From contig NZ_LN848257.1 in NCBI RefSeq assembly GCF_001499735.1, positions 2,679,570 to 2,724,235 of the forward strand: 44,666 bases of DNA. Direction: 5' to 3'. Positions 1 to 20,153 of the stretch are shown piece by piece (positions within the stretch are counted from its first letter, which is position 1; each line of letters starts with the position of its first letter). A program made the position numbers and the translations under genes. The stretch comes from Thiocapsa sp. KS1. GTDB taxonomy: Bacteria; Pseudomonadota; Gammaproteobacteria; Chromatiales; Chromatiaceae. The notes below the pieces were generated by a model, which was given only the letters and a program-made list of their open reading frames with translations, was not told where the DNA came from and ran no database searches.

Positions 1-573
1 CAAGCGGGGTTTGCCGCGCCCGGCATGCATCCGGGGGGTGCACCGCACCCGGCGAGCTATGGCCTCCCGCCCGGCGTCGATCCCTACTGGGCCTACCACG
101 CCCAAGCGCAGGCGGCCTATGCCCCGCCGCCTTACCCCTATGCCGGCCCCTATGCGGGTCCCTATGCGGGAATGGCTCCGCCGCAGGCGATATGGCCGGG
201 CTACGGCCCCGGACTCGAGCAGCAGGGCGGAGCGGGCCGCATGGCCGGCGGGGGCCACGGTGCCGGACACGGTGCCGGGATGGCCGACTTGGTCGACGAG
301 ATCGCCAACGGCGGCAACGGCCTCTCCAGCCTCGGCAAGATGCTCAATTTCGACGACTCCGAGTTCTGGAAAGGTGCGCTTCTCGGCGCCGCAGCCGTCC
401 TGTTGCTGACCAACGAGTCGGTTCAGGGCGCCCTGTTCAAGACCGGCGCCAAGACCAAAGCCGCGGTCAAGACAGGTGTGGATCGCGTCAAGGAGCGCGT
501 GCGTCAATCGGGCGACGCGAATCCGCAGGAGACGAAGGAGACGAAGGAGACGAAGGAGACGAAGGATGTCTGA
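1..573 (+). CDS. Tyr/Gly/Pro-rich membrane-associated protein, 5' end outside window
   Basis: The frame is open from base 1 and the first codons are already Gly/Ala/Pro-rich like the rest, so the start probably lies before the window; the first ATG inside is at 25. About 100 residues of low-complexity sequence (repeats of PYAG, Tyr-Pro-Tyr) are followed by a conserved block, LNF then WKGALLGAAAVLLLTNESVQ, which is one hydrophobic helix, and a Lys/Arg-rich amphipathic stretch. The tail is four ETK units encoded by a 9-bp tandem repeat. The helix block recurs in the gene ending at 1576, so the two are paralogues flanking two other small membrane genes. The arrangement before a P1B-ATPase suggests a structural or membrane-organising part of that system. 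No enzyme motif is seen. Function is inferred from context only. Confidence 0.75.
   Translation, partial: QAGFAAPGMHPGGAPHPASYGLPPGVDPYWAYHAQAQAAYAPPPYPYAGPYAGPYAGMAPPQAIWPGYGPGLEQQGGAGRMAGGGHGAGHGAGMADLVDEIANGGNGLSSLGKMLNFDDSEFWKGALLGAAAVLLLTNESVQGALFKTGAKTKAAVKTGVDRVKERVRQSGDANPQETKETKETKETKDV
531..566 (+). repeat. Four tandem copies of GACGAAGGA
   Basis: Four perfect 9-bp units. They encode the ETK tail of the upstream protein and at the same time supply AAGGAG (553-558), placed 7 nt before the ATG at 566, as ribosome-binding site of the next gene. Slippage would change tail length without shifting the frame. Confidence 0.9.
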
Positions 574-919
574 CCACGATCTCCTTCGGATGTCGACCTA
601 CCCGAGAGCATCGAGCGGTGGAACCGACTGCGCGACGCTCGTCAAGCTTGCAACCCTGGGTGCGGTCGTCGGCGGCAGCGTCGCCGCCGCCGCCAATCTG
701 CAGCGTGTCCAGGTCGGCGACCTGACGGCAACACATGCCGTTGCCGAGACAGGCAAGACGGCGCTCACCGCCGCCGTGGCGACCGCGATCGGCGGGGCCG
801 CCGCATCCAGCATCGCCGAACAAGGCTTGATGCGCCTCGGCATCATGTTCGCCGCCGGCACCCTGACTCTTTACGGACTGCAACGTTGGTCGCAGGCCCG
901 GACGGATACCGATGAGTAG
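566..919 (+). CDS. Small membrane protein with two Gly/Ala-rich helices
   Basis: 117 residues. The ATG at 566 overlaps the upstream gene by 8 bases and follows AAGGAG at 7 nt, so translation is probably coupled; the longer open frame upstream is only Arg-rich readthrough of the 9-bp repeat. Two hydrophobic segments are visible, around residues 20-43 (TLGAVVGGSVAAAAN) and 60-107 (AAVATAIGGAAASS, then LGIMFAAGTLTLYGL), with glycine-zipper spacing. Such small-residue-rich helices are typical of membrane-packing or membrane-curving proteins and of small partner proteins next to P-type ATPases. No metal-binding cysteine or histidine cluster is seen. I do not recognise the family; the role is inferred from its place in the operon. 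Confidence 0.75.
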   Translation: MSDHDLLRMSTYPRASSGGTDCATLVKLATLGAVVGGSVAAAANLQRVQVGDLTATHAVAETGKTALTAAVATAIGGAAASSIAEQGLMRLGIMFAAGTLTLYGLQRWSQARTDTDE

Positions 920-1082
920 TCAACAACAGCGTCAACGGCACGGCGTGCGTAAGAATATGGTCGAGGGGATCGGCGGTCTCCTGACCGGTATCGCGCTCGT
1001 TTTGCTTGCTCGGTCCCTGCTCAAAAAGCGGGCCGCGGCTCCCGAAGCCCCGAGCGTCGAGCCCGCGCAAGGCGCCGGATGA
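912..1082 (+). CDS. Single-helix small membrane protein, 56 aa
   Basis: A short gene with ATG at 912 overlapping the previous stop by 8 bases and its own TGA (1080-1082) overlapping the next ATG at 1079. The product has a basic N-terminus (Gln/Arg/His), one hydrophobic helix (GLLTGIALVLLARSLL, about residues 22-37) and an Ala/Pro/Glu tail. The double overlap and in-phase position make it convincing as a real gene despite its size. A single-pass protein with a charged tail next to a P1B-ATPase could be an accessory subunit; nothing in the sequence shows a metal site. Family not recognised. Confidence 0.7.
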   Translation: MSSQQQRQRHGVRKNMVEGIGGLLTGIALVLLARSLLKKRAAAPEAPSVEPAQGAG

Positions 1083-1576
1083 GCCTGGTTCCCTATCACT
1101 ACAAACCGCGCAGCGACAGCGGTGCGGACAGCATCACACGGAGACGGATCGACATGAGCAGCTCCTATAAGCCTTACGGCAATCCCTACGGTTATCCGAT
1201 GGCGGGCGGCATGGGATCGCCCAAGGCCCAAGGGCAACACTCGGCGGTCGGCCAAGGCCCCGCGATGGCCGCATACCCCGGCTACGGCTACGCTCAAGGC
1301 TACGGCATGACCCAGACGGGATACGCCGCGCCTCAAGCAGCGGGCCAACCGATGTCCCGGCAGAGCAGCCTTCTGAATTTCGGCAACGACCGCTTTCTCA
1401 AGGGCTTGCTCATCGGCGCCGCCGCGACCTATCTGCTGACCAACGAGAGCGTGCAGCGCACGGCGATCAAGGGGGTCGTGCAGGTGTGGTCTGCCCTGCA
1501 AGGTGGGATCGAAGAGGCCAAGGAGCGCTTCCACGACGCCGAGGCCGAGTTGCACCACGCGGCTCAGTCCAAGTAA
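1079..1576 (+). CDS. Tyr/Gly-rich membrane protein, paralogue of the first gene
   Basis: 165 residues from the ATGA overlap at 1079; an internal ATG at 1154, with GGAG 10 nt upstream, is a good alternative (140 residues). The first half is low complexity (YPGYGYAQGYG). The second half has LNFGNDRFLKGLLIGAAATY then LLTNESVQ, nearly the same block as in the first gene of the window, followed by an acidic/basic helix (EEAKERFHDAEAELHH). Low-complexity head, one membrane helix and charged helix make a scaffold-like layout. It is the last of four overlapping genes, and its TAA stop forms the first bases of a 12-bp inverted repeat. The paralogy is seen directly; a role in building a membrane compartment is inference. 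Confidence 0.75.
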   Translation: MSLVPYHYKPRSDSGADSITRRRIDMSSSYKPYGNPYGYPMAGGMGSPKAQGQHSAVGQGPAMAAYPGYGYAQGYGMTQTGYAAPQAAGQPMSRQSSLLNFGNDRFLKGLLIGAAATYLLTNESVQRTAIKGVVQVWSALQGGIEEAKERFHDAEAELHHAAQSK

Positions 1577-1660
1577 ACCGCGTCCTCGTGTTGACATGGG
1601 TTGTTCGGGCTTGGGCCCGACGTTGCCGCGGCCCGATGCCTCGGTGGCGGACGCGGTTTA
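1574..1660. repeat. Long inverted repeat, copy a (TAAACCGCGTCC arms)
   Basis: Perfect 12-bp arms at 1574-1585 and 1649-1660, 63 bp apart. The left arm starts with the TAA stop of the upstream gene. Lies in the 181-bp gap before the P-type ATPase. Arms resemble those of four other elements in this window (9484, 10425, 20143, 20258). Confidence 0.75.
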
Positions 1661-1757
1661 GATGTTCGATGACTTCGATTGCTCGGACACCTGTCCTGCA
1701 ACGCCCGTCGTTCGCGGCGCATCCGAGCCCGCTTGGTCTGCGCAGAGGACACGTCGG

Positions 1758-3935
1758 ATGTGGATTGACCCGATGATGAGCGCCGGCTCGCCGCCAGTCG
1801 GCCTGAGCTATCGCATCGTCCATGAGCTTCCCGGGCGATTGCGATTGCGCATCCCGGCGCTCGGCGCGCCGGGCTTCGACCCCGACGACCTGGAAGACTG
1901 GATGGATCCGCTCGGCGTTGTCACGAGCGCACGTGCGAGCTGCGGCGCCAGCAGTTTGGTCGTGGTCTATCACGAGTCCGCCGGCGCACGCGACAGCGTG
2001 CTTCGGCGACTGGACGCCTATTCGCCGCGGACCGAGCCCGGGGTCACGGGCGGCGGCTCGCGCGACGCCGAGATCTTCCCCATGGTGACCGCTGCGGCAA
2101 CCATCGCACTCCTGCCCTTTCTGAGCCGCCCGCTCCAGGTCGCGCTGACGGTGGCCAACGTCGCTTCGACCTTGGGGACCGGGGCCGAAACCCTGATCCG
2201 CGAGGGCATCAAGGTGGAGGTCCTCGACGCGCTTGCGATCGGCCTCTCCGCGGCCAGGGGCGAGCTCTACACGGCGAACATCACCGACTTTCTGCTCGCG
2301 CTCGGCAACTTCCTCGAGCGGCGCACCGAGCGCCAGTCGGACCGTCTGTTGCGCAAGCTGCTGCGACCCGAGCCCGCGATGGCCTGGGTCGAGCGCGACG
2401 GCGAGCTGACGCAGATTCCGGGCGATCAGGTCATGCCCGGCGAGGTGGTCGTGGTCGGCACGGGGGAGACCATCCCGGTCGACGGACGGGTCGTCGGCGG
2501 CAGCGCCCTGGTGAATCAGGCCGCCGTCACCGGCGAGGACGTCCCGGTGCGCAAGGAGGCGCCGCGCCGCGCGATCTCGGGCTCGGTCCTGATCGAGGGC
2601 CGGCTGCGGATCGAGGCGACGCAGGTCGGCGACGAGACCACGACCGCACGCATCTCGCGCTTCATCCAGGAATCGCTCGACAAGCGCTCCGACACCCAGC
2701 GCGAGGCCGACCGACTCGCCGATCAGCGGGTCTATCTGACCCTGGGGACGGGTGCAGTGGTCTACGGGGTGACCCGCAACCTCACCCGCCTGCAATCCGT
2801 GTTTCTCGTCGATTACTCCTGTGCGCTCAAGCTGGGCACGCCGGTCGCTTTCAAGTCCGGGATGTACCAGGCCGCCGCGCACGGCGTCCTCATGAAAGGC
2901 GGCGAGGCGATCGAGCACCTCGCGGGTGTTGACACCATCGTCTTCGACAAGACAGGCACGCTGACCCACAGCGAGCTCGAGGTCACGGATGTCGTCGTCC
3001 TGAGGGAAGAGGCCACTTGCACCGAGACGGCACTCCTCGCACTCGTCGCCTCGGTCGAGGAGCACGCCGCCCATCCGGTGGCCAACGCCGTCGTGGAAGC
3101 GGCGCGCTCGCGCGATCTACAGCATATCTCGCACGGCGAGGTCGATTATCTGGTCGCGCACGGTCTGTCCGCCGACGTCCAGGGCGAGCAGATCTTGGTC
3201 GGCAGTCGCCATTACTTGGAGGAGCATCGGGGAATCGCGTTCGACGACCATGCCGAGCAGATCGCCCGTCTCGAAGAGCAGGGCAAGATCCTGCTCTTCG
3301 TCGGCAACGCCCATGGACCGGTCGGGCTGATCGCCTTACGCGACACCTTGCGGGCCGAGACGCGCGAGACGCTCGAGCGTCTACGGGCACAAGGGATTCG
3401 CCGTCTGGTGATGATCACGGGCGACCGCCGCCAAAAGGCCGAGGCATTGGCCCGCGAGTTGGGCCTCGACGCCTTTTACGCGGAGGTCGCGCCGGAGGAA
3501 AAAGCCGACCTGATCGCCCGCTTCCAGGCGGACGGCAGCCGCGTGGCCTTCGTCGGCGACGGAGTGAACGACGGTCCGGCACTGGTCGCCGCAGACGTCG
3601 GCATCGCCATGCCGCGCGGCGCGGACATCGCCCGCGCCACCGCCGATATCCTGTTGATGGACGACCGCCTCGGCGCCGTGGCCGACGCCCGCGAGATCGC
3701 GACCAAGACCATGGCCCTGATCCGCGGCAACTTCCGTGCGGCCATCGGGATCAACACCGGTATCCTCGCCGGCGCGATCGGCGGTGTCCTCTCGCCGGTC
3801 GCCAGCGCGCTGCTGCATAACGGCACCACCATCGGCATCCTCTTCAATGCACTGAAGGGTGTGCGGCTCGAAGGAGAAACCGACGGGTCGATGAGTGCCC
3901 GACTGGCGCAGATCAAAGACATCGTCAGGCGCTGA
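1758..3935 (+). CDS. P1B-type metal-transporting ATPase, probable P1B-6 (FezB-like)
   Basis: 725 residues from ATG 1758, chosen because AGAGGA lies 8 nt upstream; the frame is open back to an ATG at 1662. Seen: an N-terminal HMA-like region with the arginine-rich motif PGRLRLR (25-31) and no CxxC; TGED in the actuator domain (258-261); SCA (Cys355) in the ion-path helix instead of CPC; phosphorylated Asp397 in DKTGT; the heavy-metal HP motif (His439); GDGVNDG (600-606); and a final hydrophobic pair near the C-terminus. These are hallmarks of a P1B-ATPase moving a transition metal across a membrane with ATP. Arg-rich head plus SCA point to the P1B-6 group, which includes FezB of ferrosomes, so iron is the likely substrate (inference). 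Follows four small membrane genes; no terminator is seen between them. Confidence 0.88.
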   Translation: MWIDPMMSAGSPPVGLSYRIVHELPGRLRLRIPALGAPGFDPDDLEDWMDPLGVVTSARASCGASSLVVVYHESAGARDSVLRRLDAYSPRTEPGVTGGGSRDAEIFPMVTAAATIALLPFLSRPLQVALTVANVASTLGTGAETLIREGIKVEVLDALAIGLSAARGELYTANITDFLLALGNFLERRTERQSDRLLRKLLRPEPAMAWVERDGELTQIPGDQVMPGEVVVVGTGETIPVDGRVVGGSALVNQAAVTGEDVPVRKEAPRRAISGSVLIEGRLRIEATQVGDETTTARISRFIQESLDKRSDTQREADRLADQRVYLTLGTGAVVYGVTRNLTRLQSVFLVDYSCALKLGTPVAFKSGMYQAAAHGVLMKGGEAIEHLAGVDTIVFDKTGTLTHSELEVTDVVVLREEATCTETALLALVASVEEHAAHPVANAVVEAARSRDLQHISHGEVDYLVAHGLSADVQGEQILVGSRHYLEEHRGIAFDDHAEQIARLEEQGKILLFVGNAHGPVGLIALRDTLRAETRETLERLRAQGIRRLVMITGDRRQKAEALARELGLDAFYAEVAPEEKADLIARFQADGSRVAFVGDGVNDGPALVAADVGIAMPRGADIARATADILLMDDRLGAVADAREIATKTMALIRGNFRAAIGINTGILAGAIGGVLSPVASALLHNGTTIGILFNALKGVRLEGETDGSMSARLAQIKDIVRR

Positions 3936-3942
3936 TCGGATC

Positions 3943-4023
3943 GGTAGGGTGGACAAGCGCAGCGCAGTCCACCAACGCCGTCGCAGGACTCTGTGGACTT
4001 CGCTCTCGCTCGTCTACCCTACC
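3943..4023. repeat. GTAGGGTGGA inverted-repeat element, copy 1
   Basis: Ends GGTAGGGTGGAC (3943-3954) and GTCTACCCTACC (4012-4023) are complementary with one mismatch. Shares its head and the inner AGTCYACC/GTGGACT pieces with the copy at 16064-16148. Fills the gap between the ATPase and the convergent cupin gene. Confidence 0.7.
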
Positions 4024-4061
4024 GGGCCGGCGTGACAGCCAAATCCCTTCGGCGGACCGAA

Positions 4062-4442
4062 TCAGTCAACGTCCTTGTCGGTGCCCCCGGCGCGGTTTAG
4101 CCGGACCGGCGCGCCGAAGAAGACCAGGACCGTCAGATCCTCCTCGACATCGAAAAAGGCATGATCGCAGGCGGCATGCACGTACATCAGCGTACCTTCC
4201 CGCACCGCATGCTCGCTGTCCCCGACCCGCAGTCGCCCTCGCCCGCCGAGCACGAGATACAGCTCGTCCTCCTCGTGCGCGCTCGCCATGTCGCGCGATC
4301 CGGCGGGGAGGTGATAGACCGAGCAGCTGAGCGAGGGTGTACGCAGAAACTCCTTAAGAGACAGGGTTCCCGGCTCTACGCGTGCCATCAGCTCCTCGAG
4401 CTGGAAGACCAACCAATCATCGTCATTGTTCATCGTGCGCAT
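4062..4442 (-). CDS. Small cupin-domain protein
   Basis: 126 residues if the ATG at 4442 is used, 123 from the ATG at 4433; neither has a strong ribosome-binding site. A single cupin barrel is clear: AHEEDELYLVLGGRGRLRVG (motif 1, with His/Glu metal ligands) and GTLMYVHAACDHAFFDVEED (motif 2, with His). Such stand-alone cupins bind a metal and act as small sensors, isomerases or dioxygenases; the substrate cannot be read from the sequence. It is transcribed away from the HMA-like gene at 4664, and their shared upstream region holds a Fur-box-like site, so the two might be co-regulated, although the promoter seen there points rightward. Convergent with the ATPase gene, separated by a repeat element. 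Confidence 0.75.
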   Translation of the reverse strand: MRTMNNDDDWLVFQLEELMARVEPGTLSLKEFLRTPSLSCSVYHLPAGSRDMASAHEEDELYLVLGGRGRLRVGDSEHAVREGTLMYVHAACDHAFFDVEEDLTVLVFFGAPVRLNRAGGTDKDVD

Positions 4443-4580
4443 TCTCGTCGTAAAAGCTGATGCATGGACCGGTCAAGCCCTGCTGCGCGTGTCTTGGAGC
4501 CGACCGCTTGAAGAGAATCGGCGCGGCCCCCCGGTCGAGTGTCTGTCTTACGGATCCGAAGACCCGGAAAGAATACCGTT

Positions 4581-4621
4581 AATGCGAAGGATTTGCATTC
4601 GCCTGATTCGGGACATACTAT
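4581..4621 (+). promoter_or_regulatory. Sigma-70-like promoter with Fur-box-like palindrome over the -35
   Basis: TTGCAT (4593-4598), a 17-nt spacer and TACTAT (4616-4621) form a good sigma-70 promoter 42 nt before the ATG at 4664. The -35 is embedded in AATGCGAAGGATTTGCATT (4581-4599), a 19-bp palindrome matching at 7 of 9 paired positions, similar to gammaproteobacterial Fur sites. A repressor bound here would block polymerase, giving iron-starvation induction of the HMA-like gene (inference). Confidence 0.55.
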
Positions 4622-4663
4622 TCAAGCGTCGTCACTCGGTTTCCCATCGCGAGGCATCCGTCC

Positions 4664-5017
4664 ATGAGCCACTATATCCATCACGTCCCCGGCCGCCTAC
4701 GGATTCGTTCCGGCTCCTTTCGTTGCGACCCGGTCAGTGCGCGTCTGGCCGAGGGCGAGCTGCGCGCGACCGAGGGGGTTCGTGAGGTGCGCGTGAATCC
4801 GCGCGCAGGCAGCATCACCGTCCACTACGAGACCGAACGCCTGACCCAAGCGCAGATCCTGGAAAGACTTGAGCAGGTCGGCTGTCTCGGTGCCTCGATC
4901 CGCACGGATTTGGGTGGAACACGCGTGCACGAGGTCTTCGGAAAGGCCCTCGTCGGCGCCGTCATGCAGAAGGCCGTCGAACGCTCGGCCGTGCGGCTGG
5001 TCAGCGTGCTGCTCTGA
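4664..5017 (+). CDS. HMA-like domain protein with C-terminal helix (ferrosome-type)
   Basis: 117 residues from ATG 4664, with GAGG 10 nt upstream. Residues 1-70 form a ferredoxin-like beta-alpha-beta fold of the heavy-metal-associated type: VPGRLRIR near the start, a central GVREVRVNPRAGSITVHYE and LTQAQILERL, but no CxxC metal site. The arginine-rich PGRLRIR is shared with the N-terminus of the ATPase at 1758-3935, so the two likely recognise the same partner, lipid or ion. A C-terminal Ala/Val-rich amphipathic helix (FGKALVGAVMQKAV) follows. Fez operons encode a comparable HMA-type protein besides the ATPase. It is separated from the ATPase by a repeat and a reverse-strand cupin gene and has its own promoter. 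Role in metal delivery or membrane association is inferred. Confidence 0.75.
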   Translation: MSHYIHHVPGRLRIRSGSFRCDPVSARLAEGELRATEGVREVRVNPRAGSITVHYETERLTQAQILERLEQVGCLGASIRTDLGGTRVHEVFGKALVGAVMQKAVERSAVRLVSVLL

Positions 5018-5115: not shown

Positions 5116-5517
5116 ATGCTCGACATCAGCGCCCTCGAGAAAGCCATCGCCCGGTTGGCGGAAGGCGTAGCCCGGTATCAACAGGACATCACGGACACAC
5201 AGATCCATGATGGCCTGATTCAGCGCTTCGAGCTCACCTACGAGCTCAGCCATAAGATGCTGAAACGTTATCTTGTATCTGTCTCGCCCAGCCCCGAAAC
5301 CTATCAAAGCATAGCCTTTCAGGACCTGATCCGCTCGGGCAACGCACAGGGTCTGCTGCAGGGCGACTGGCCTACTTGGCGCCGATACCGCGAGATGCGC
5401 GGTATGACCAGCCACACAGACGACGAAGACACAGCACTTGCGGTCGTCGACGCCATTCCGTCATTTCTCGCCGAGGCGACCTATCTGCGTGACCGCTTGA
5501 AGGAACGCGTACGATGA
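5116..5517 (+). CDS. HEPN toxin, HI0074-family nucleotidyltransferase partner
   Basis: 133 residues, an all-helical protein of the HI0074/HEPN family, formerly called nucleotidyltransferase substrate-binding subunit. It keeps the HEPN RNase signature R-x4-H as Arg95-GMTS-His100, near the start of the last helix, and the typical GNAQGLLQGDWPTWRRYRE region before it. HEPN proteins of this group are ribonuclease toxins whose activity is blocked by AMPylation by the neighbouring MNT protein. The stop overlaps the MNT start by 4 bases (ATGA), so the two are made together. The start at 5116 follows a purine-rich GGGAGAGGGAGA stretch. The pair most likely works as a toxin-antitoxin or abortive-infection module; that is known for the family and inferred here. 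Confidence 0.85.
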   Translation: MLDISALEKAIARLAEGVARYQQDITDTQIHDGLIQRFELTYELSHKMLKRYLVSVSPSPETYQSIAFQDLIRSGNAQGLLQGDWPTWRRYREMRGMTSHTDDEDTALAVVDAIPSFLAEATYLRDRLKERVR

Positions 5518-5894
5518 CGGAGACGACCGCAGCCCCCCCGATCGACATCAGCCCCGATCACTGGACCATCGTCCGCGACATCCTCGATCGGCATCTCCCG
5601 AACTACGAGGTCTGGGCCTTCGGCTCGCGCACCAAAGGGACGGCCAGGCCCTACTCGGATCTAGATCTCGCGATCATCACCGACAAGCCCCTTTCACTGG
5701 ATGTCCGCGCCGCGCTGGCCGAGGATTTCTCCGAGTCCGACCTGCCCTGGCGTGTCGATATCGTGGATTGGGCCGCTGCGAGCGAATCGTTCCGGGGGAT
5801 TATGGAGCAGGACAGAGTGGTCCTCCGACGAGCCGATGTCCGCGTGTCCGGACAGAACCAGGGAGCCCGCGTAAACCCGGAGATGCACGGCTAG
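5514..5894 (+). CDS. MNT antitoxin, minimal nucleotidyltransferase
   Basis: 126 residues. The polymerase-beta-type nucleotidyltransferase motif is complete: GSRTKG (37-42), then SDLDLAI with Asp49 and Asp51, and a third acidic residue Asp82 in WRVDIVDW. MNT antitoxins use ATP to AMPylate the HEPN partner and silence it. The core ends near residue 106 (EQDRVVLRR). The remaining 20 residues (ADVRVSGQNQGARV and on) do not look like the family and may come from loss of an earlier stop; they end with a TAG that overlaps the convergent hydrolase gene by 4 bases. Translation is coupled to the HEPN gene through an ATGA overlap. Confidence 0.88.
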   Translation: MTETTAAPPIDISPDHWTIVRDILDRHLPNYEVWAFGSRTKGTARPYSDLDLAIITDKPLSLDVRAALAEDFSESDLPWRVDIVDWAAASESFRGIMEQDRVVLRRADVRVSGQNQGARVNPEMHG

Positions 5895-7244: not shown

Positions 7245-9386
7245 TCAGCTCGTCAGCTTGCGATAGATATCCGAGACCTTGAGCGGAAGTTTGCTCACAT
7301 CGCAGATGACGGCGTAATTGGCCGGACCGTACATGTGCGGCAGATAGTCGGCCCCGGTTTCGTCGATGGTGATGCAGAAGGCGTGAATGCCGTTCAGGCG
7401 GGCCTCGAAGAGGGCCTGGCGGGTGTCTTCGATGCCGTATTCGCCGCGGTATTGGTGGTCGTAGTCGTCGGGTTTACCGTCGGAGAGCGTGATCAGGAGC
7501 TTCACGCGGGCCTCCTGCTCGGCGAGCAGGTGGCTGAGATGGCGGATGGCCACCCCCATGCGGGTGTAGTCGCGCGGGGCGATGCCGCAGATGCGGGCCT
7601 TGGCGTCTTCGTCGTAGGCTTGGGCGAAGGTCTTGACCGGGTAGGCCTCGCAGCGCTTGCGGGTCCAGCCGGAGAAGCCGTAGATGGCAAAACGATCGCC
7701 GAGGGTGTCGAGCGCCTCGGCGAGCAGGATGAGGGCCTCGCGCTCGGCCTGGTTGATCCAGCCCTTGGTTGAGCCTGACATATCGACCATCAGCATGACG
7801 GCGATGTTGCGCTCGTCCTTGTGCATGCGGGTGAAGAGCCGGTCGGTCATCTCCAGTCCCGCGTGCACGTCCGCATAGGCGTCGACCAGGGCATCGATGT
7901 CGACATCCTCGCCGTCGCTCTGACGCTTGAGCAGCCGGTCCTCGCCGCGCAGCACCTCGAAGGTGCGGCGGATGGATTTGATCAGCCCGCCGTATTTACG
8001 CAGCGTCTGATAATAGAAGTCCGGGTCGCTCGGCGGCACCGGATGCTCGCGCAGGATGCACCAGCCCTTGCGGTGATGCTGTCGGCTGTGGTCCCACTCG
8101 TCGTAGGGGAAGGCGCCGTCCTCGTGATAGGTCCCGGCCCAGACCGACTCGGCTGCGCGCTCGTCGTCGCCGAGACCGCGCTTGTAGAGACCGGGCCCGG
8201 CGGCGACCAGATACTCGGGCGGGATCTCGCCGTGATCCTGGATGATGCTCTCCATGGTGGAGATCACATCCTCGGGCGGTGCGACGGGCTTGCCGTCCAG
8301 CATGAGATCGAATCGAACCCCGTTCGGACTGTCCGGGTCCTCGTGTCGGCGGGTTGCAAGACGATCGCGGGTCTCGGGCAGGGTCTCGGCCTCCGGTCGG
8401 TCCTCGCCGGGCGGCGCCCCGTCCTGATCCTCCAGCATTTTGGCCAGGGCAATGCGGAAACGGTCCTGCTCCAGTGCGCTGCGGATCGCGAGCCGGGTGC
8501 GCACCGCATCGGGTTGAAGCTCGCCCCGATAACAGCAAGGGCGCGGCGGACGGCCGCGCAGCGCCTCGACCAAACGAAGCGTTTCGCGCACGTCGCTGCC
8601 GGGCTCGGTGAGTCGATCAACCGCACTACGCCAGCCGCTGTCCTCGCCGTCCAGCTCGAGCCGTAGGGCGGTCATATCGCGGCGAAGACCCGGATAATCG
8701 CGCGCGATACAGGCGTCGAGCCGGAAGGTCTCCAGGACGTGGAAGATGGCCAGATCGCGCGGCGCGAGCCGGCCCGAATCGAGTGCCTCCAGAAGGAGAC
8801 CGGCACGCCAGGTTCCGTACCAGTTTTGCGCCCATTGATGAACGGCCATGGCTTTGTAGAGACGAAAGTTCGCCTCCTTGTCCGGAAGACGGCCCAAGAT
8901 GGGCGGCAGAAAGACGCTCTCGGTGTCGGTATAGGGAATGTCGGCCGGGGCGATCTTGAGCGGGCGCCCGTTCAGCCCGCAGACAAAGCGCTCAAGCACC
9001 GCGGAGCAGTCTTCCAGCGCCATTCCCGCCAGACGCTCCTGCATGTTGGCCGCAAAGTCGGCGACCTGCTGGAAGGCGCGAATGGCCGGGATCTGGCCCT
9101 TCTTGTCGTAGAGGTCCATGGCGTAGAGCAGCCAAGACTCGACCGCGTCCAGATCCATCAACCGCATTGCCCGCGGCGCAAAGGCGGTGAACTGATAGGC
9201 CAGCTCCGCGTTGTCTTTGGCGATAACCGCGCCCCAGTGGAGAACGAACTGCTGTCCTCGCCGGCCGAAGGCAGCCAGATCGCGAGCCGGCTGCGAGGCG
9301 TCGCGGCGCGAGGAGAGTGCGGCGTCGAGATACGCCTCCATCAACTCTTCGAGAGCGTCGGCGGAGAGTGCCGCATCGAGCTTCAT
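7245..9386 (-). CDS. cbbO: CbbO/NorD-type von Willebrand A protein
   Basis: 713 residues from ATG 9386, preceded by GGAAGAGG at 4 nt; the frame is open to 9464, with a weaker start at 9428. A long helical N-terminal part is followed by a C-terminal von Willebrand A domain with the metal-ion adhesion motif DMSGS (Asp535, Ser537, Ser539). CbbO binds Rubisco through this domain and works with the CbbQ hexamer to eject inhibitory sugar phosphates; NorD/NirD relatives do the same job for nitric oxide reductase. It follows cbbQ on the same strand across a 115-bp inverted repeat. No Rubisco or nor genes are in the window, so cbb rather than nor is judged from the closeness of the CbbQ sequence. Its stop lies 259 bp from the hydrolase gene. 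Confidence 0.8.
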   Translation of the reverse strand: MKLDAALSADALEELMEAYLDAALSSRRDASQPARDLAAFGRRGQQFVLHWGAVIAKDNAELAYQFTAFAPRAMRLMDLDAVESWLLYAMDLYDKKGQIPAIRAFQQVADFAANMQERLAGMALEDCSAVLERFVCGLNGRPLKIAPADIPYTDTESVFLPPILGRLPDKEANFRLYKAMAVHQWAQNWYGTWRAGLLLEALDSGRLAPRDLAIFHVLETFRLDACIARDYPGLRRDMTALRLELDGEDSGWRSAVDRLTEPGSDVRETLRLVEALRGRPPRPCCYRGELQPDAVRTRLAIRSALEQDRFRIALAKMLEDQDGAPPGEDRPEAETLPETRDRLATRRHEDPDSPNGVRFDLMLDGKPVAPPEDVISTMESIIQDHGEIPPEYLVAAGPGLYKRGLGDDERAAESVWAGTYHEDGAFPYDEWDHSRQHHRKGWCILREHPVPPSDPDFYYQTLRKYGGLIKSIRRTFEVLRGEDRLLKRQSDGEDVDIDALVDAYADVHAGLEMTDRLFTRMHKDERNIAVMLMVDMSGSTKGWINQAEREALILLAEALDTLGDRFAIYGFSGWTRKRCEAYPVKTFAQAYDEDAKARICGIAPRDYTRMGVAIRHLSHLLAEQEARVKLLITLSDGKPDDYDHQYRGEYGIEDTRQALFEARLNGIHAFCITIDETGADYLPHMYGPANYAVICDVSKLPLKVSDIYRKLTS

Positions 9387-9483
9387 CGAGCCTCTTCCAG
9401 CGCATTCCGCAGCAATTGCATCCGCCATGGACGTCTCACCGTGTCGCGAGCACACAACATGCAAATGTCAAGAGTCTTGAGTC

Positions 9484-9598
9484 CTCTGTTTTGAAGCGCG
9501 TCTTTCGAAGCGCGTCCACCGCCGTGTATCCAGACGTTTGCGAAGCTGCACCAATTCGATCACAGCGCATAGCGCGCGAGACGCGCTTCAAAACAGAG
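9484..9598. repeat. Long inverted repeat, copy b (20-bp arms) between cbbQ and cbbO
   Basis: Perfect 20-bp arms at 9484-9503 and 9579-9598, 75 bp apart. Read in the direction of transcription (minus), the first arm contains the cbbQ stop codon as TGAAGCGCGTC. A second copy of GAAGCGCGTC sits at 9507-9516. The stem could stabilise the cbbQ end of the message relative to cbbO. Confidence 0.85.
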
Positions 9599-10406
9599 AA
9601 GCGCCAAGCTCGTTGACCGCCGCCAACATATCCGGGTCATCCGTCAGCGCCTGAGCAATGGCACTGCGGCAAGCCACCACAGGCGCAACACCGGAGACCA
9701 TGAGCTTGGCCGCGTGCACCAGCAGCCGGGTCGAGGCACCTTCGTCCAATCCCTGCCCTTTCAGATTCCGGGTCATGTGCGCGAACTTGACCAGCTGACG
9801 GGCCAGGGCGGAGGCGATCCCGGACTCCTTCTCGACGATCTTCTGCTCCAAGGCGGAGCCCGGATAGTCGAACTCCAGGGCGACGAAGCGCTGGCGCGTC
9901 GACTGTTTGAGATCCTTCAGGACACTCTGATAGCCCGGGTTGTAGGAGATGGCGAGACAGAAGGTATCCGGCGCCTCGAGCAGCTCGCCGAGCTTCTCCA
10001 TCGGGAGCACGCGGCGATCGTCGGCCAGCGGGTGAATGACCACGGTCGTGTCCTTGCGCGCCTCGACGACCTCGTCCAGATAACAGATGCCGCCGGCCCG
10101 CACGGCGCGGGCGAGCGGGCCGTCGACCCAGATGGTCTCGCCGCCCTTCACCAGGAAGCGCCCGACCAGATCGGACGAGGTCAGATCATCGTGGCAGGAG
10201 ACGGTGATCAGCGGGCGGTGCAGGCGCCACGCCATGTGCTCCATGAAACGTGTCTTGCCGCATCCGGTCGGGCCCTTCAGCAGGATGGGCAGGCTGTTTC
10301 GATAGGCGGCCTCGAAGACCGGGATCTCGTCGCCGACGGGCTCGTAATAGGGCTCGTCCTCGATGAAATAGTCCTCGGGCTTCAGGACTCTGAGCACATG
10401 CTGCAC
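9588..10406 (-). CDS. cbbQ: CbbQ-type MoxR AAA+ ATPase (Rubisco activase component)
   Basis: 272 residues starting with GTG at 10406; AGGAGG at 10413-10418 is 6 nt upstream and decides the start. Walker A is GPTGCGKT (45-52), the Walker B region reads GGICYLDEVVEA, and DLTSSDLVGRFL and the ISYNPGYQS sensor segment are those of the CbbQ/NirQ/NorQ family; the length is normal. CbbQ forms a hexameric ring that drives CbbO to remodel inhibited Rubisco. It is transcribed before cbbO. A 12-bp inverted repeat ends 7 nt upstream of its ribosome-binding site, so leader structure could affect expression. NorQ is the alternative name, but no denitrification genes are nearby. Confidence 0.85.
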   Translation of the reverse strand: MQHVLRVLKPEDYFIEDEPYYEPVGDEIPVFEAAYRNSLPILLKGPTGCGKTRFMEHMAWRLHRPLITVSCHDDLTSSDLVGRFLVKGGETIWVDGPLARAVRAGGICYLDEVVEARKDTTVVIHPLADDRRVLPMEKLGELLEAPDTFCLAISYNPGYQSVLKDLKQSTRQRFVALEFDYPGSALEQKIVEKESGIASALARQLVKFAHMTRNLKGQGLDEGASTRLLVHAAKLMVSGVAPVVACRSAIAQALTDDPDMLAAVNELGASLF

Positions 10407-16029: not shown

Positions 16030-16580
16030 CGATCCCCCTCGACGGGCGTTGTTCATGACCCCGGCCGTAGGGTGGACGAGCAAGAGCGAAGTCTACCGAA
16101 CCCCGCGCCGGCGCCGGTGGACTGCACCACGCTTATCCACCCTACGGCTACGACCGGCGACGTGGCCGAGTTTATGAGCAAGCCCCCCTCGACGCATCCC
16201 CGCAGTAAACGACACCCGATCATCGCATCGCCCGGACCTAATAAACGAACATCCTCGAATCGCGTCCGCTCCGACGCCTGTTGATCGAAACCAAGCGCGA
16301 TCCAAGCGAAAACCCCGCAGACCACTCCAAGACGCGATTTGAGCAGCATAACGATGCTCTATCAAACCATCAAAAACTACGATAGAGCCATTCAATAGCT
16401 TGCCGTAGCCGCTGCCGCTCGACAGGGGTATCTTAGCCAATCCCGATATTCGGGCGCCCTCGCGCCTTGAATGTTCCGAACGACGAAGCGTCCCGCCCTG
16501 TCGCCACTGACCGGTCGCCACTGATCGAGACTGTCCCGGGCCGCTCGCCACGCCATTCCGCGAAGACGGAGGTAATGTCC
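16030..16580. other. 551-bp divergent region upstream of qmoA
   Basis: Holds the GTAGGGTGGA repeat (16064-16148) and, near qmoA, a rather A/T-rich stretch with a perfect 8-bp inverted repeat, GCTCTATC (16356-16363) and GATAGAGC (16381-16388), 17 nt apart, which could be an operator. No clear -35/-10 pair was found. Small open frames here come from the repeat and are not credible genes. Confidence 0.5.
16064..16148. repeat. GTAGGGTGGA inverted-repeat element, copy 2
   Basis: Perfect 13-bp ends GCCGTAGGGTGGA (16064-16076) and TCCACCCTACGGC (16136-16148). Same head and inner pieces as the element at 3943-4023. Confidence 0.75.
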
Positions 16581-17864
16581 ATGACGGCAGTCGTCGCAAC
16601 CAACGAGACCATCCTGGTGGTCGGTGGTGGCATCAGCGGCATGACCGCTGCACTGGAGGCCGCCGAGACCGGGAAGCAGGTCGTCCTGGTCGAGAAGCGT
16701 CCTTATCTGGGTGGCCGAGTCTCCCAGCTGTACAAATATTTCCCCAAGCTCTGCTTTCCCACCTGTGGGCTCGAGATCAACCAGCGCCGGGCCAAGACCA
16801 ATCCCAACCTGACCATCCTCACGATGGCCGAGGTCACGGATCTCGCCGGCACCAAGGGCGACTACCGCGCCACCGTCAAGCTCTCCCCTCGCTTCGTCAA
16901 CGAGCACTGCACCGCCTGCGGCGATTGCGAAAAGGCGGTCGAGGCCGAGTTCGACGACGAGTACAACTACGGCTTGGGCAAGCGCAAAGGCGCCTATCTG
17001 CCCTACCGCATGGCCCATCCGCAGCGCTATGTGCTGGATCCGGCGATCATCGGCACCCCGGATGCCGAGAAGGCCAAGGCCGCCTGCAAATACGGTGCGA
17101 TCGATCTGGAGATGCGCGAGGAGACGCTCGAGTTTCGCTGCGGCGCGGTGATCTGGGCGACCGGCTGGCGTCCCTACGATGCCGCCAAGATCCAACCCTA
17201 CGGCTACGATCGGATCAAGAACGTGGTCACCAGCGTCGAGTTCGAGCGCATGGCCGACCCGAACGGCCCGACCGGCGGCAAGCTGGTGCGCCCGTCCGAC
17301 GGCAAGGAGGCCAAAAAGGTCGCCTTCATCCAGTGTGCCGGCTCGCGCGACCGCAACCACCTGCTGCACTGCTCGCGCATCTGCTGCATGGCCTCGCTCA
17401 AGCAGGCGACCTATGTCGCCGACGCCTTCGCCGACGACGCCGAGATCAACATCTATTACATCGACCTGCGTGCCATCGATCGCTTCGAGGACTTCTACAC
17501 CAAGGTCCGGGCCAATCAGAACATCCGGTTCATCAAGTCCAAGCCGGCCTCCGTCGTCGCCGACAAGGACGGCAACCCGGTCGTTCACGGCGTCGACACC
17601 GAGGGGTATGTCCGCTTCGCCGAGCCGCATGACCTGGTCGTGCTGGCCATCGGCATGGAGCCCTCGGTCGACAAGGACGCCTTCCCGGTGCCCATTGTCT
17701 TGAACCGCGAGGGTTTCATCGAGGCATCGCCCCAGAACGGCGGCGTCTTCGCGGCCGGCAGTGCATCCGATGCGCTCGATGTCAACCGGGCGGTCCAGCA
17801 CGCCACCGGAGCGGCCTTGCGCGCCATCCAGGTCGTCAACAGCGTTGCCAGAGCGGAGGCTTGA
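16581..17864 (+). CDS. qmoA: QmoA, HdrA-like flavoprotein of the Qmo complex
   Basis: 427 residues. GGAGGT at 16568-16573 sits 7 nt before ATG 16581 and only 1 nt before the ATG at 16575, so 16581 is chosen. The FAD-binding GGGISGM (15-21) and VEKRPYLGGR open the protein. LCFPTCGLEINQRR, HCTACGDCEK and the paired cysteines of LLHCSRICCMASLKQ are those of QmoA, a shortened HdrA. In sulfate reducers QmoABC links the quinone pool to APS reductase; in sulfur oxidisers it is thought to take electrons from APS reductase as sulfite is oxidised. First gene of qmoAB-hdrCB; 3 nt before qmoB. No aprBA in the window. Confidence 0.95.
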   Translation: MTAVVATNETILVVGGGISGMTAALEAAETGKQVVLVEKRPYLGGRVSQLYKYFPKLCFPTCGLEINQRRAKTNPNLTILTMAEVTDLAGTKGDYRATVKLSPRFVNEHCTACGDCEKAVEAEFDDEYNYGLGKRKGAYLPYRMAHPQRYVLDPAIIGTPDAEKAKAACKYGAIDLEMREETLEFRCGAVIWATGWRPYDAAKIQPYGYDRIKNVVTSVEFERMADPNGPTGGKLVRPSDGKEAKKVAFIQCAGSRDRNHLLHCSRICCMASLKQATYVADAFADDAEINIYYIDLRAIDRFEDFYTKVRANQNIRFIKSKPASVVADKDGNPVVHGVDTEGYVRFAEPHDLVVLAIGMEPSVDKDAFPVPIVLNREGFIEASPQNGGVFAAGSASDALDVNRAVQHATGAALRAIQVVNSVARAEA

Positions 17865-17867
17865 GCC

Positions 17868-20153
17868 ATGGCAGTCGAAAAGAAATTCGCCGGCTACATC
17901 TGCACGGGCTGCGGCATCGGCGAGCGGTTGAACGTCGGCCAGCTGGAGACCATCGCCAGCCGCGAAGGCAAGATGGCGAGCGTGAAACAGCACGCCATGC
18001 TCTGCTCGCCCGAGGGCGTGCAGCTCATCCGCGACGACATCGCCGCGGGCAACGCCACCCACGTGATGATCGCCGCCTGCTCGCGCCGCTCCAAGGTCGA
18101 GGCCTTCAGCTTCCCGGATGCCGCCATGTCGCGCGCCAATCTGCGCGAAGGCGTGATCTGGTCGCGTCCGGATGACCCGGCACAGCAGGAGACCACGCAG
18201 GAGATGGCGGACGACTACGTCCGCATGGCCTGCGCCGAGGTCAAGTACATGACCGTCCCGACCCCCTCGGGCGAGCAGGAGGTCAACAAGGCGATCCTGG
18301 TTGTCGGCGGCGGCGTGACCGGCATGACCGCCGCGCTCGAGACCGCCGCGGCCGGCTATCCGGTTCACCTGGTCTGCGACGAGCCCGAGCTGGGCGGTGC
18401 CTGGAAGGATCTCTACAAGCGCGTGCCCTTCCGCGCCGCGGCCTCCGACGTGCCCAACGGGCGCGATGTCGACCTGCCGCAACCGGAGGATCCGGGCATC
18501 GCGGACATGATCGAGCGGGTGCTGGCCGATCCGCGCATCACGCTGCATCTGAACTCGCGTCTCACGCGGACCTCGGGCGCGCCCGGTCGCTTCGCCGCCG
18601 ACATCAGCGCCGAGTCCGGGTCGACCGTCACCGAGAACTTCGGCGCCATCGTCCAGGCGAGTGACTTCAAACCTTACGACGCGAACAAGCTGCCCGAATT
18701 CGCGTACGGCAAGACCCCGGACGTGGTCACCAACTTCGAGCTGGAGCGCCTCGCCAAGGCCGCCGACGGCGGGCCCTTGAAGCGTCCGTCCGACGGCAAG
18801 GTGGTGCAGTCGGTCGCTTTCATCCAGTGCGCCGGTCAGCGCTCGGACAAGGAGGGCCATCTGCCCTACTGCTCGGGCTTCTGCTGCACCGAGTCGATCA
18901 AGCAGGCGATGTATTTCCGCGCGCAGAACCCGGACTGCGACACCACGGTGCTGTTCGACGATCTGCGCACCCCCGGCGCGGCGGGCGAGGACTTCTACCG
19001 CTCCGGCCAACAGGCCATGGTGACCTTCACCAAGGGCAAGGCGTCCGAGGTGGTTCAAGAAAACGGTCAGCTCAAGGTCAAGTTCAAGGATCTGATCCTG
19101 AACGAAGACACCGAGATGGACTGCGACCTGGTGGTGCTCGCGACCGGTCAGGTGCCGAACGTCGGCCCGGATCCCTACGCCCAGCTCGCGGTCGACGAGG
19201 CCCCAACCGAGGAAGAGAAGGAGGCAGCACGGCGCAAGCTCGCGGTCGCCCCGCCTTCGATCCTCAACCTCGACTATCGTCAGGGCACGGATCTGCCGCA
19301 GCTCAAGCACGGTTTCGTCGACAGCCACTTCATCTGCTTCCCCTACGAAACGCGGCGCACCGGCATCTATGCCGCCGGTCCGGTCCGGCGTCCGATGGAC
19401 ATGAAGCAGGCGATGGAAGACGCCGTCGGCGCGGCCATGAAGGCGATCCAGTCCGCCGAGAACGCGGGCCGCGGGACCGGCGTACATCCGCGGGTGGGTG
19501 ATCTGAGCTATCCGAGCTTCCGCAAGGAAGGCTGCACCCAGTGCAAGCGCTGCACCGTCGAGTGTCCCTTCGGCGCCATCAACGAGGACGAGCAGCGCTA
19601 CCCGCTCTTCAACGAGTCGCGCTGCCGCCGCTGCGGAACCTGTATGGGCGCTTGCCCGGTGCGTGTCATCTCCTTCGAGAACTACTCGATCGACACGGTC
19701 AACCAGCAGATCAAGGCGGTCGATATCCCGGACGAGTTCTCCGAGAAGCCGCGCATCCTGGCACTCGCCTGCGAGAACGACGCCTATCCGGCGCTCGACA
19801 TGGCCGCACAAGCCGGCGTTGCACTCACGCCCTTCGTGCGCGTCATCCCGGTCCGCTGTCTCGGCTCGGTCAGCCTCTCCTGGGTGACGGACGCCCTGAA
19901 CTCGGGCTTCGACGGCATCGTGCTCATGGGCTGCCGGCGCGACGAAGACTATCAGTGCCACTTCGTGCGTGGCTCGGCGATGGCGGCGGAGCGTCTGAGC
20001 AAGGTCGGCGACACGCTCACCCAGCTCAACCTGGAGACCGAGCGGGTCGCCGTGCACGAGGTCGCGATTACGGATCTGCAGCGCGCGCCCGGGTTGCTCA
20101 ACGAGATGGCGGCGACGATCGAGAAGATCGGCATGAGCCCGTTTAAATTCTGA
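17868..20153 (+). CDS. qmoB: QmoB, HdrA-like flavoprotein with ferredoxin and MvhD-type domains
   Basis: 761 residues, full length. Order of parts: an N-terminal CTGCGIG (12-18) segment, the FAD site GGGVTGM (147-153), an HdrA-like core with FIQCAGQR and the cysteines of YCSGFCCTESIKQ, then two 4Fe-4S sites (Cys556, 559, 562, 566 and Cys586, 589, 592, 596), and a C-terminal MvhD/FlpD-like domain (about 620-761) with VRCLGSVS and GCRRDEDYQCHF, which may hold a 2Fe-2S cluster. QmoB is thought to contact APS reductase and pass electrons to the HdrC-type subunit. The stop is inside an inverted repeat followed by a T-rich run, which may reduce readthrough into hdrC. Confidence 0.95.
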   Translation: MAVEKKFAGYICTGCGIGERLNVGQLETIASREGKMASVKQHAMLCSPEGVQLIRDDIAAGNATHVMIAACSRRSKVEAFSFPDAAMSRANLREGVIWSRPDDPAQQETTQEMADDYVRMACAEVKYMTVPTPSGEQEVNKAILVVGGGVTGMTAALETAAAGYPVHLVCDEPELGGAWKDLYKRVPFRAAASDVPNGRDVDLPQPEDPGIADMIERVLADPRITLHLNSRLTRTSGAPGRFAADISAESGSTVTENFGAIVQASDFKPYDANKLPEFAYGKTPDVVTNFELERLAKAADGGPLKRPSDGKVVQSVAFIQCAGQRSDKEGHLPYCSGFCCTESIKQAMYFRAQNPDCDTTVLFDDLRTPGAAGEDFYRSGQQAMVTFTKGKASEVVQENGQLKVKFKDLILNEDTEMDCDLVVLATGQVPNVGPDPYAQLAVDEAPTEEEKEAARRKLAVAPPSILNLDYRQGTDLPQLKHGFVDSHFICFPYETRRTGIYAAGPVRRPMDMKQAMEDAVGAAMKAIQSAENAGRGTGVHPRVGDLSYPSFRKEGCTQCKRCTVECPFGAINEDEQRYPLFNESRCRRCGTCMGACPVRVISFENYSIDTVNQQIKAVDIPDEFSEKPRILALACENDAYPALDMAAQAGVALTPFVRVIPVRCLGSVSLSWVTDALNSGFDGIVLMGCRRDEDYQCHFVRGSAMAAERLSKVGDTLTQLNLETERVAVHEVAITDLQRAPGLLNEMAATIEKIGMSPFKF

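Follow-up and report, generated by a model that had tools for sequence, protein, structure and literature searches.

A predicted fez-type operon with a distant MamC relative in the purple sulfur bacterium Thiocapsa sp. KS1

Does a purple sulfur bacterium carry the genes for a ferrosome, an iron organelle for which the literature consulted names few makers, among them Desulfovibrio magneticus, Rhodopseudomonas palustris and Clostridioides difficile (PMC12748827, PMC12016538, PMC12574912), joined by Shewanella in the preliminary description of this DNA? This question is raised by one end of a 44,666 nt stretch of Thiocapsa sp. KS1 (Chromatiaceae; NZ_LN848257.1, 2,679,570-2,724,235, G000:C1:2679570-2724235), the whole of which is called the window here. 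In it, four small genes (p1 to p4) are followed by the gene of a P1B-type ATPase and, further downstream, by a gene for an HMA_2 protein. We conclude that an anoxygenic phototroph very probably carries a fez-type (ferrosome) operon here, from whose genes we infer the organelle. The preliminary description of this DNA had proposed a fez or ferrosome-type locus, which agrees with the class of the ATPase in the tree and with gene kinds that, except for p3, match those of other Pseudomonadota, including three loci (L152-L154) described below.

The class of the ATPase

P1B-6 pumps are defined by an SCA motif. The window's ATPase carries SCALKLGTP where CPC pumps have CPC, together with DKTGT and HNGTT, and its HMA-like head contains HELPGRLRLR (YRIVHELPGRLRLR) and no CxxC, so that both the PGRLRLR head and the replacement of CPC by SCA noted earlier are present in the sequence. 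The start of the protein is uncertain, lying either at 1662 or at M38/M39 (1773/1776). A FastTree phylogeny was computed from 81 sequences and 676 columns, with the truncated ATPase of L135 dropped. The 55 SCA-like sequences fell into one clade of 57 tips (local support 0.915), which held a subclade of 36 Pseudomonadota/Campylobacterota ATPases with support 1.0 and a host-family subclade of 14 with support 0.996. The 24 tips outside this clade were the host's own CPC pumps (L002, L004 and L006) and 21 other P-type ATPases, mostly with CPC or SPC. Among these outside tips, L059 and L063 are P-type ATPases of a different kind, the longest open reading frame (ORF) of the locus having been taken, and L088 has another motif. 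Two cyanobacterial tips within the SCA clade, L056 (Baaleninema) and L068 (Crocosphaera), had PGRLRLR/PGRVRVR heads and MTGIR/VTGIR instead of SCA.

The ATPase therefore did not cluster with P1B-1 to P1B-4 pumps, being placed in the SCA clade apart from the CPC/SPC outgroups, and a P1B-1, P1B-2 or P1B-4 identity was rejected by the SCA motif and the tree position. By motif and phylogeny, it is assigned to the P1B-6 pumps of FezB type, and is called FezB below. Among the solved-structure matches listed (60 of 89), none was labelled P1B-6 and the nearest were copper, cadmium and zinc pumps. In the literature, P1B-6 is tabulated as Fe(II) (PMC7558416) and FezB is called a putative ferrous iron transporter (PMC11334425), while P1B-6 pumps were biochemically unexamined as of 2016 (PMC4932525).

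The accompanying proteins and their recurrence

Forty-nine loci with an SCA-type ATPase were compared, and HMA_2 was counted on either strand within the stretch examined. Proteins of the p1/p4 kind, called head proteins for their low-complexity N-terminal parts, occurred in all 15 host-family loci, two of them upstream in 14, together with a p2-family protein in 13, p3 in 14 and HMA_2 in 9. The 15 loci of other Pseudomonadota/Campylobacterota, which include Hahella, Rhodomicrobium udaipurense, Rhodobacter capsulatus, Cereibacter azotoformans, Azospirillum, Vibrio, Sulfurospirillum and Arcobacter, likewise all had head proteins (two upstream in 12), with a p2-family protein in 11, HMA_2 in 13 and p3 in none. 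In Rhodomicrobium, Rhodobacter, Cereibacter, Vibrio and Hahella, FezB again came with a pair of head proteins and a p2-family protein, mostly also with HMA_2, which was not found in the stretch examined of the Rhodomicrobium and Sulfurospirillum loci. Since the same order recurs in other genomes, the gene set is more than chance. The remaining 19 SCA loci (13 Clostridia-type, three methanogens, two Desulfobacterota-type and one Bacteroidales) had HMA_2 in three, and head, p2-family and p3 genes in 0 of 19.

Two of these settings are informative about iron and about known fez operons. On plasmid pORIO2 of Cereibacter azotoformans, the genes next to the operon encode FeoA, a pair of TonB receptors, a FecR-family protein and a factor of the sigma-70 family. 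In L152-L154, six genes stand in a row, encoding HMA_2, HMA_2, a YtxH-like protein, a p2-family protein, a second YtxH-like protein and FezB; the HMA_2 at the front of the row is a weak match (E 2e-6 to 1e-4), and so is the first of the two YtxH-like proteins (3e-4 to 9e-4). These three genomes were drawn from the family of a Xanthobacteraceae metagenome-assembled genome and carry photosystem genes. Within the host genus, one genome (G007) has two fez-type operons, L119 and L120, each with p1 to p4 and FezB, and the two FezB sequences share 80% and 66% identity with that of the window.

The p1 gene begins outside the window, with its ATG 219 bp upstream (L009:9781), and a run of 100 N (L009:9900-9999) lies directly before window base 1, so that the p1 head is incomplete in the assembly, broken by this gap. 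A second run of about 100 N near L009:6550-6650 lies likewise in a low-complexity coding region, and both runs are probably scaffold gaps. As far as it can be read, p1 runs from a Tyr/Gly/Pro/Gln-rich head through a conserved core (SEFWKGALLGAAAVLLLTNESVQ) to a basic tail, and p4 has a head of the same kind, a Gly/Ala-rich stretch and a charged segment (EEAKERFHDAEAEL); the p4 start at 1079 yields the peptide MSLVPYH, which recurs in L116, L117 and L121. From iterated hidden Markov model (HMM) searches, p1 and p4 are judged to be paralogues: profiles begun from either one reached 59 ORFs in 30 loci and, among the matches listed, labelled the same ORFs. In raw composition, Tyr, Gly, Pro and Gln make up 43% of the p1 head, a value that counts the unknown gap residues, and 45% of the p4 head. 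At least 35% was reached in 47 of 51 homologous heads of at least 25 residues, five ORFs with heads too short and three ORFs downstream of the ATPase having been left out. The Tyr/Gly/Pro-rich heads claimed earlier were thus recovered in p1 and p4, and are Gln-rich as well.

Pfam said little about p1 to p4, the DUF6232, SARAF and YtxH matches of the window proteins all being under their cut-offs; weak YtxH similarity (E <= 0.01) was found in 4 of 14 p4-family members scanned, the window's p4 not among them. A 19-residue Kyte-Doolittle scan gave two clearly hydrophobic segments in p2 and one in p3, and none over threshold in p4 and in the part of p1 within the window. Of the four small overlapping membrane-protein genes in the preliminary description, the overlap holds for all, and a clearly hydrophobic character holds for p2 and p3 only, p1 being judged by its part in the window.

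The p2 protein, whose hydrophobic segments span residues 22-43 and 66-84, matched the NCBIfam model of MamC (NF038051) at 3.7e-10 and 40 bits over model positions 12-91 of 97, across the conserved hydrophobic core, which is a likeness to MamC (Mms13); it differs in that the equivalog cut-off is 100 bits. On this score, p2 is filed as a distant MamC homologue only, not as a MamC equivalog. The model was matched by 22 of 25 p2-family ORFs, namely by all 17 of a first scan (best value 1.8e-12), in which MamC was the sole model of NCBIfam to reach E <= 0.01, and by 5 of the 8 scanned later. The p2-family ORFs of Cereibacter, Azospirillum and Rhodobacter capsulatus gave no match to the MamC model, and neither did those of L152 and L154 (two of the three loci L152-L154 were scanned); in these five, the link to MamC runs solely through the intermediate p2 profile. 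Nine of ten block-shuffled versions of p2 and one reversed version served as controls, and as 0 of 10 matched MamC, a composition effect was rejected as the source of the similarity. Chance matches do occur at the level of 8e-4, where one of the controls hit an unrelated family.

The distribution of MamC-model matches followed that of FezB. Among 57 host-family genomes, matches were found in 13, which are 13 of the 14 with FezB versus none of the 43 without, and each of the 13 has a match 0.6-1.1 kb from fezB; no match in the 57 genomes was over the cut-off. The exception is G027, in which FezB lies about 250 bp from a contig end (L134) and no MamC-model match was found. Two genomes, G456 and G031, have a further match elsewhere. 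In G006 (L118), which is outside the 57 genomes, the operon is present and the p2 gene was not detected; L130-L133 are also without p2. AlphaFold modelled p2 as three helices with low certainty (mean predicted local distance difference test, pLDDT, 73 in the best model and 60-65 in the other four; predicted template modelling score 0.48). MamC is described as having a role in crystal size and shape (PMC12746419) and may bind iron oxide (PMC12199438). In their available parts, texts naming both MamC and ferrosome draw no link between them (PMC12713370, PMC12778047, PMC12199438), and our literature search, which did not cover the founding papers Grant et al. 2022 and Pi et al. 2023, returned no stated MamC-ferrosome link.

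The HMA_2 protein has an HMA-like fold, a PGRLRIR head and no CxxC; the HMA-like protein with PGRLRIR in the preliminary description is confirmed by a Pfam match over the cut-off and by the presence of the motif. Its AlphaFold model (mean pLDDT 73) is confident for residues ~1-70 and uncertain in the C-terminal part. Foldseek placed HMA domains of the CopZ and RAN1 type at the top, with a best E of 1.2e-3, none at E <= 0.001, and template modelling scores by target of 0.69-0.79 for the first four matches.

Phototrophy, Fur-like operators and gene layout

The host genome encodes two Photo_RC proteins, and Photo_RC was found in 11 of 11 host-genus genomes, FezB in 8 of them. Counting one entry per genus over 56 genera of the host family, FezB was present in 13 of 18 Chromatiaceae genera with Photo_RC versus 1 of 38 without (G466), which corresponds to a Fisher p of 6e-8 that overstates the association because genera are related and some genomes incomplete. 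A phylum-wide link between FezB and phototrophy was rejected: in a draw of 398 genomes, in which the FezB and Photo_RC scans were taken as covering the same genomes since the listed handles agreed, FezB occurred in 1 of 31 with Photo_RC, the host itself, and in 7 of 367 without (Fisher p 0.48). In a Xanthobacteraceae draw, 22 of 248 genomes were over threshold, and Photo_RC was found in 9 of the 12 strongest (at least 755 bits), a raw count; the weaker ones, which may be other pumps, were set aside.

Fur-like operators were sought with a generic consensus (AATGAKAATNATTMTCATT) whose degenerate positions were chosen after the promoters had been seen, and the p-values given here are therefore somewhat optimistic. 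A Fur-like box (AACAAGAACCGTTATCATT and variants, with a different sequence in L120) precedes the operon in 9 of 9 host-genus loci from 8 genomes. Its distance from the start scored for the first gene is 79-94 bp, and its score is 13-14 of 18; the shuffle p is 0.003-0.013, and comparison with other parts of its own locus gives p 0.017-0.040. The host feoA promoter, as a positive control, scored 13 of 18 (p 0.013). A separate palindrome, AATGCGAAGGATTTGCATT, lies at -83 of the HMA_2 gene. It scores 14 of 18 and was found in 6 of 6 host-genus loci tested (shuffle p 0.003-0.010); in L118 it lies at -85 with one base changed. Of the 26 operon loci scored, 13 had a shuffle p < 0.05; outside the host genus, these were 4 of 17 (L128, L129, L130 and L132), and 13 of 17 were not. 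The operator AGAACCGTTATCATT, with up to 2 mismatches, was found in the host genome at the fez site and one other only, a result too narrow to define a regulon.

The features are collected in the table below. Neighbouring genes overlap by 8 bp (p1/p2), 8 bp (p2/p3) and, if p4 starts at 1079, 4 bp (p3/p4).

Table. Features of the fez-type locus, in window coordinates
Feature	Coordinates	Strand	Basis
p1, 3' part of head protein	1..573	+	HMM iteration puts p1 in p4 family
p2, small hydrophobic MamC-related protein	566..919	+	NCBIfam NF038051 match
p3, 56 residues, one hydrophobic segment	912..1082	+	hydropathy and locus comparison
p4, second head protein	1079..1576, or start 1154	+	profile and head composition
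Predicted FezB-type P1B-6 ATPase	1662..3935	+	motifs and tree
Cupin protein, divergent	4062..4442	-	PF07883 1.6e-8
Fur-like palindrome AATGCGAAGGATTTGCATT	4581..4599		83 bp before HMA_2 start
HMA_2 protein	4664..5017	+	PF19991 32.8 bits (cut-off 30)

The HMA_2 gene is probably its own transcription unit, since it lies about 730 bp from the ATPase gene, with the cupin gene in divergent orientation between them. The cupin gene between fezB and the HMA_2 gene is kept in the host genus (82-99% identity in six loci, L010-L015), and its product is probably not part of the system. Beyond the locus, window positions 5116-5894 encode a pair of HEPN-MNT type, in which NTase_sub_bind (PF08780) comes first and a nucleotidyltransferase (PF01909) second, as is typical of toxin-antitoxin systems. 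A CbbQ-type AAA protein lies beside a large protein without a Pfam match at 7245-10406, and two oxidoreductase subunits at 16467-20153 resemble QmoA/QmoB; these genes are in keeping with an autotrophic sulfur oxidiser. The host assembly measures 10.4 Mb versus 3.3-6.1 Mb in genus mates, and is possibly inflated.

A probable ferrosome operon and the alternatives

R. palustris is reported to build ferrosomes with a set of six fez genes, RPA2333-2338 (PMC12016538). If L152-L154 are Rhodopseudomonas, that operon shares with the window a P1B-6 ATPase, YtxH-like proteins, a p2-family protein and adjoining HMA_2; compared with it, the host-family loci add p3 and the long Tyr/Gly/Pro/Gln-rich heads, and the host's HMA_2 gene lies downstream, probably in a separate unit, whereas L152-L154 have two HMA_2 genes in front. 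With the fezABC of D. magneticus, the window shares the FezB-type P1B-6 core transporter (PMC10979944, PMC11334425), but it is without a FezC-like DUF4405 cytochrome. As DUF4405 was absent from the Pfam matches of p1 to p4 and HMA_2, the locus was not assigned to the D. magneticus-type fezABC subgroup. In C. difficile, FezA and FezB are required for ferrosomes and Fur represses their production (PMC12574912). The window resembles fezAB in its FezB-type ATPase; the clostridial SCA-ATPase loci of our comparison, none of them from C. difficile, differ in being without head or p2-family proteins in the stretch examined. Among the papers listed by the literature search (25 of 164 in one case), and subject to the same limit on the two founding papers, none linked ferrosomes with Chromatiaceae, purple sulfur bacteria or phototrophs, and nothing in them went against the remark in the preliminary description that no account was known for this group.

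For a fez-type operon, the following course of events can be proposed. When iron is short, Fur would leave the operators and the proteins would be made. FezB would reside in a vesicle that stems from the cytoplasmic membrane, and would move Fe(II) out of the cytosol into its lumen once iron is available again. From the cytosolic side, p1, p4 and p3 may coat or shape the vesicle, and the Tyr/Gly/Pro/Gln-rich heads of p1 and p4 would serve as arms that are sticky or bind metal. The MamC-like p2 would be membrane-spanning and may touch the iron mineral as it forms, a role proposed for MamC in magnetosomes. Neither the HMA_2 protein nor the FezB head has a CxxC, and instead of carrying metal as copper-type HMA domains do, they may use the basic PGRxRxR patch to dock to one another or to lipids. 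Finally, the stored iron would supply the assembly of photosystems, cytochromes and Fe-S clusters. Iron granules, the transported metal and a condensate or coat role of the heads are all matters that we infer.

Could the same genes serve without an organelle? A P1B-6 exporter with helper proteins, which would detoxify excess Fe(II) across the plasma membrane, appears improbable to us: 19 of the 49 SCA loci are without head and p2-family proteins in the stretch examined, so that an ATPase of this type does not by itself imply a complete set of organelle genes, but here a multi-protein set is kept, its gene kinds are shared with the presumed Rhodopseudomonas operon, and the Fur-like operators suggest expression at low iron, the opposite of an exporter's need. 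We give even less credence to a vesicle store of the same architecture for another metal (Zn, Mn or Co). Sequence gives no certain reading of metal specificity, and in NCBIfam the generic matches of the ATPase are heavy-metal pumps; SCA instead of CPC/SPC, a head without CxxC, the iron-uptake neighbours in Cereibacter and the Fur-like boxes of the host genus all argue against such a store. A different matter, compatible with a ferrosome, is whether the heads are not condensate arms but Tyr/His/Gln-rich iron-binding tails that hold Fe in or near the vesicle. We consider this idea rather less likely than not: His reaches 0.21 in the heads of L130 and L132 and 0.14 in that of L133, with Tyr kept, but is scarce in the window heads (0.02-0.04).

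Several observations weigh against the fez-type reading of the locus. The organelle itself is predicted here from genes, and the comparison with proven Fez proteins was made at the level of their published descriptions; a named-genome scan by general peptide patterns kept 80 of at least 589 matches, and R. palustris, Shewanella putrefaciens, D. magneticus and C. difficile were absent from the 80 kept. L152-L154 are probably Rhodopseudomonas, an identity reached indirectly, in part from their family and their photosystem genes. The HMA_2 gene probably lies outside the operon's transcription unit, and at the threshold applied, FezB was missing from 3 of 11 host-genus genomes. No Fur-like box was significant (p < 0.05) in 5 of 5 host-family loci from other genera, and the same was true of 6 of 6 Rhizobiales/Rhodobacterales-type loci, groups that often use other iron regulators.

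A fez-type operon nevertheless remains our explanation for the locus, and a broader proposal can be attached to it: that a true MamC relative handles the vesicle iron mineral in the ferrosomes of many Pseudomonadota/Campylobacterota, a trait shared with magnetosomes, and that the organelle of purple sulfur bacteria is an iron reserve for photosynthesis. Taken jointly, these two statements are tentative and on balance unlikely to hold together, and our estimate was lowered slightly because the alphaproteobacterial p2-family proteins tested gave no direct MamC match. An organelle serving as a photosynthetic iron reserve would explain why FezB follows phototrophy within the host family. Free iron is scarce in sulfidic water, and a conserved fez-type operon tied to phototrophy within Chromatiaceae would have a testable role there as an iron reserve for the photosystem. 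As a MamC relative encoded by a 354-bp gene, p2 would offer a concrete molecular link between two iron organelles, the ferrosome and the magnetosome, through which ferrosomes might control mineral growth as magnetosomes do.

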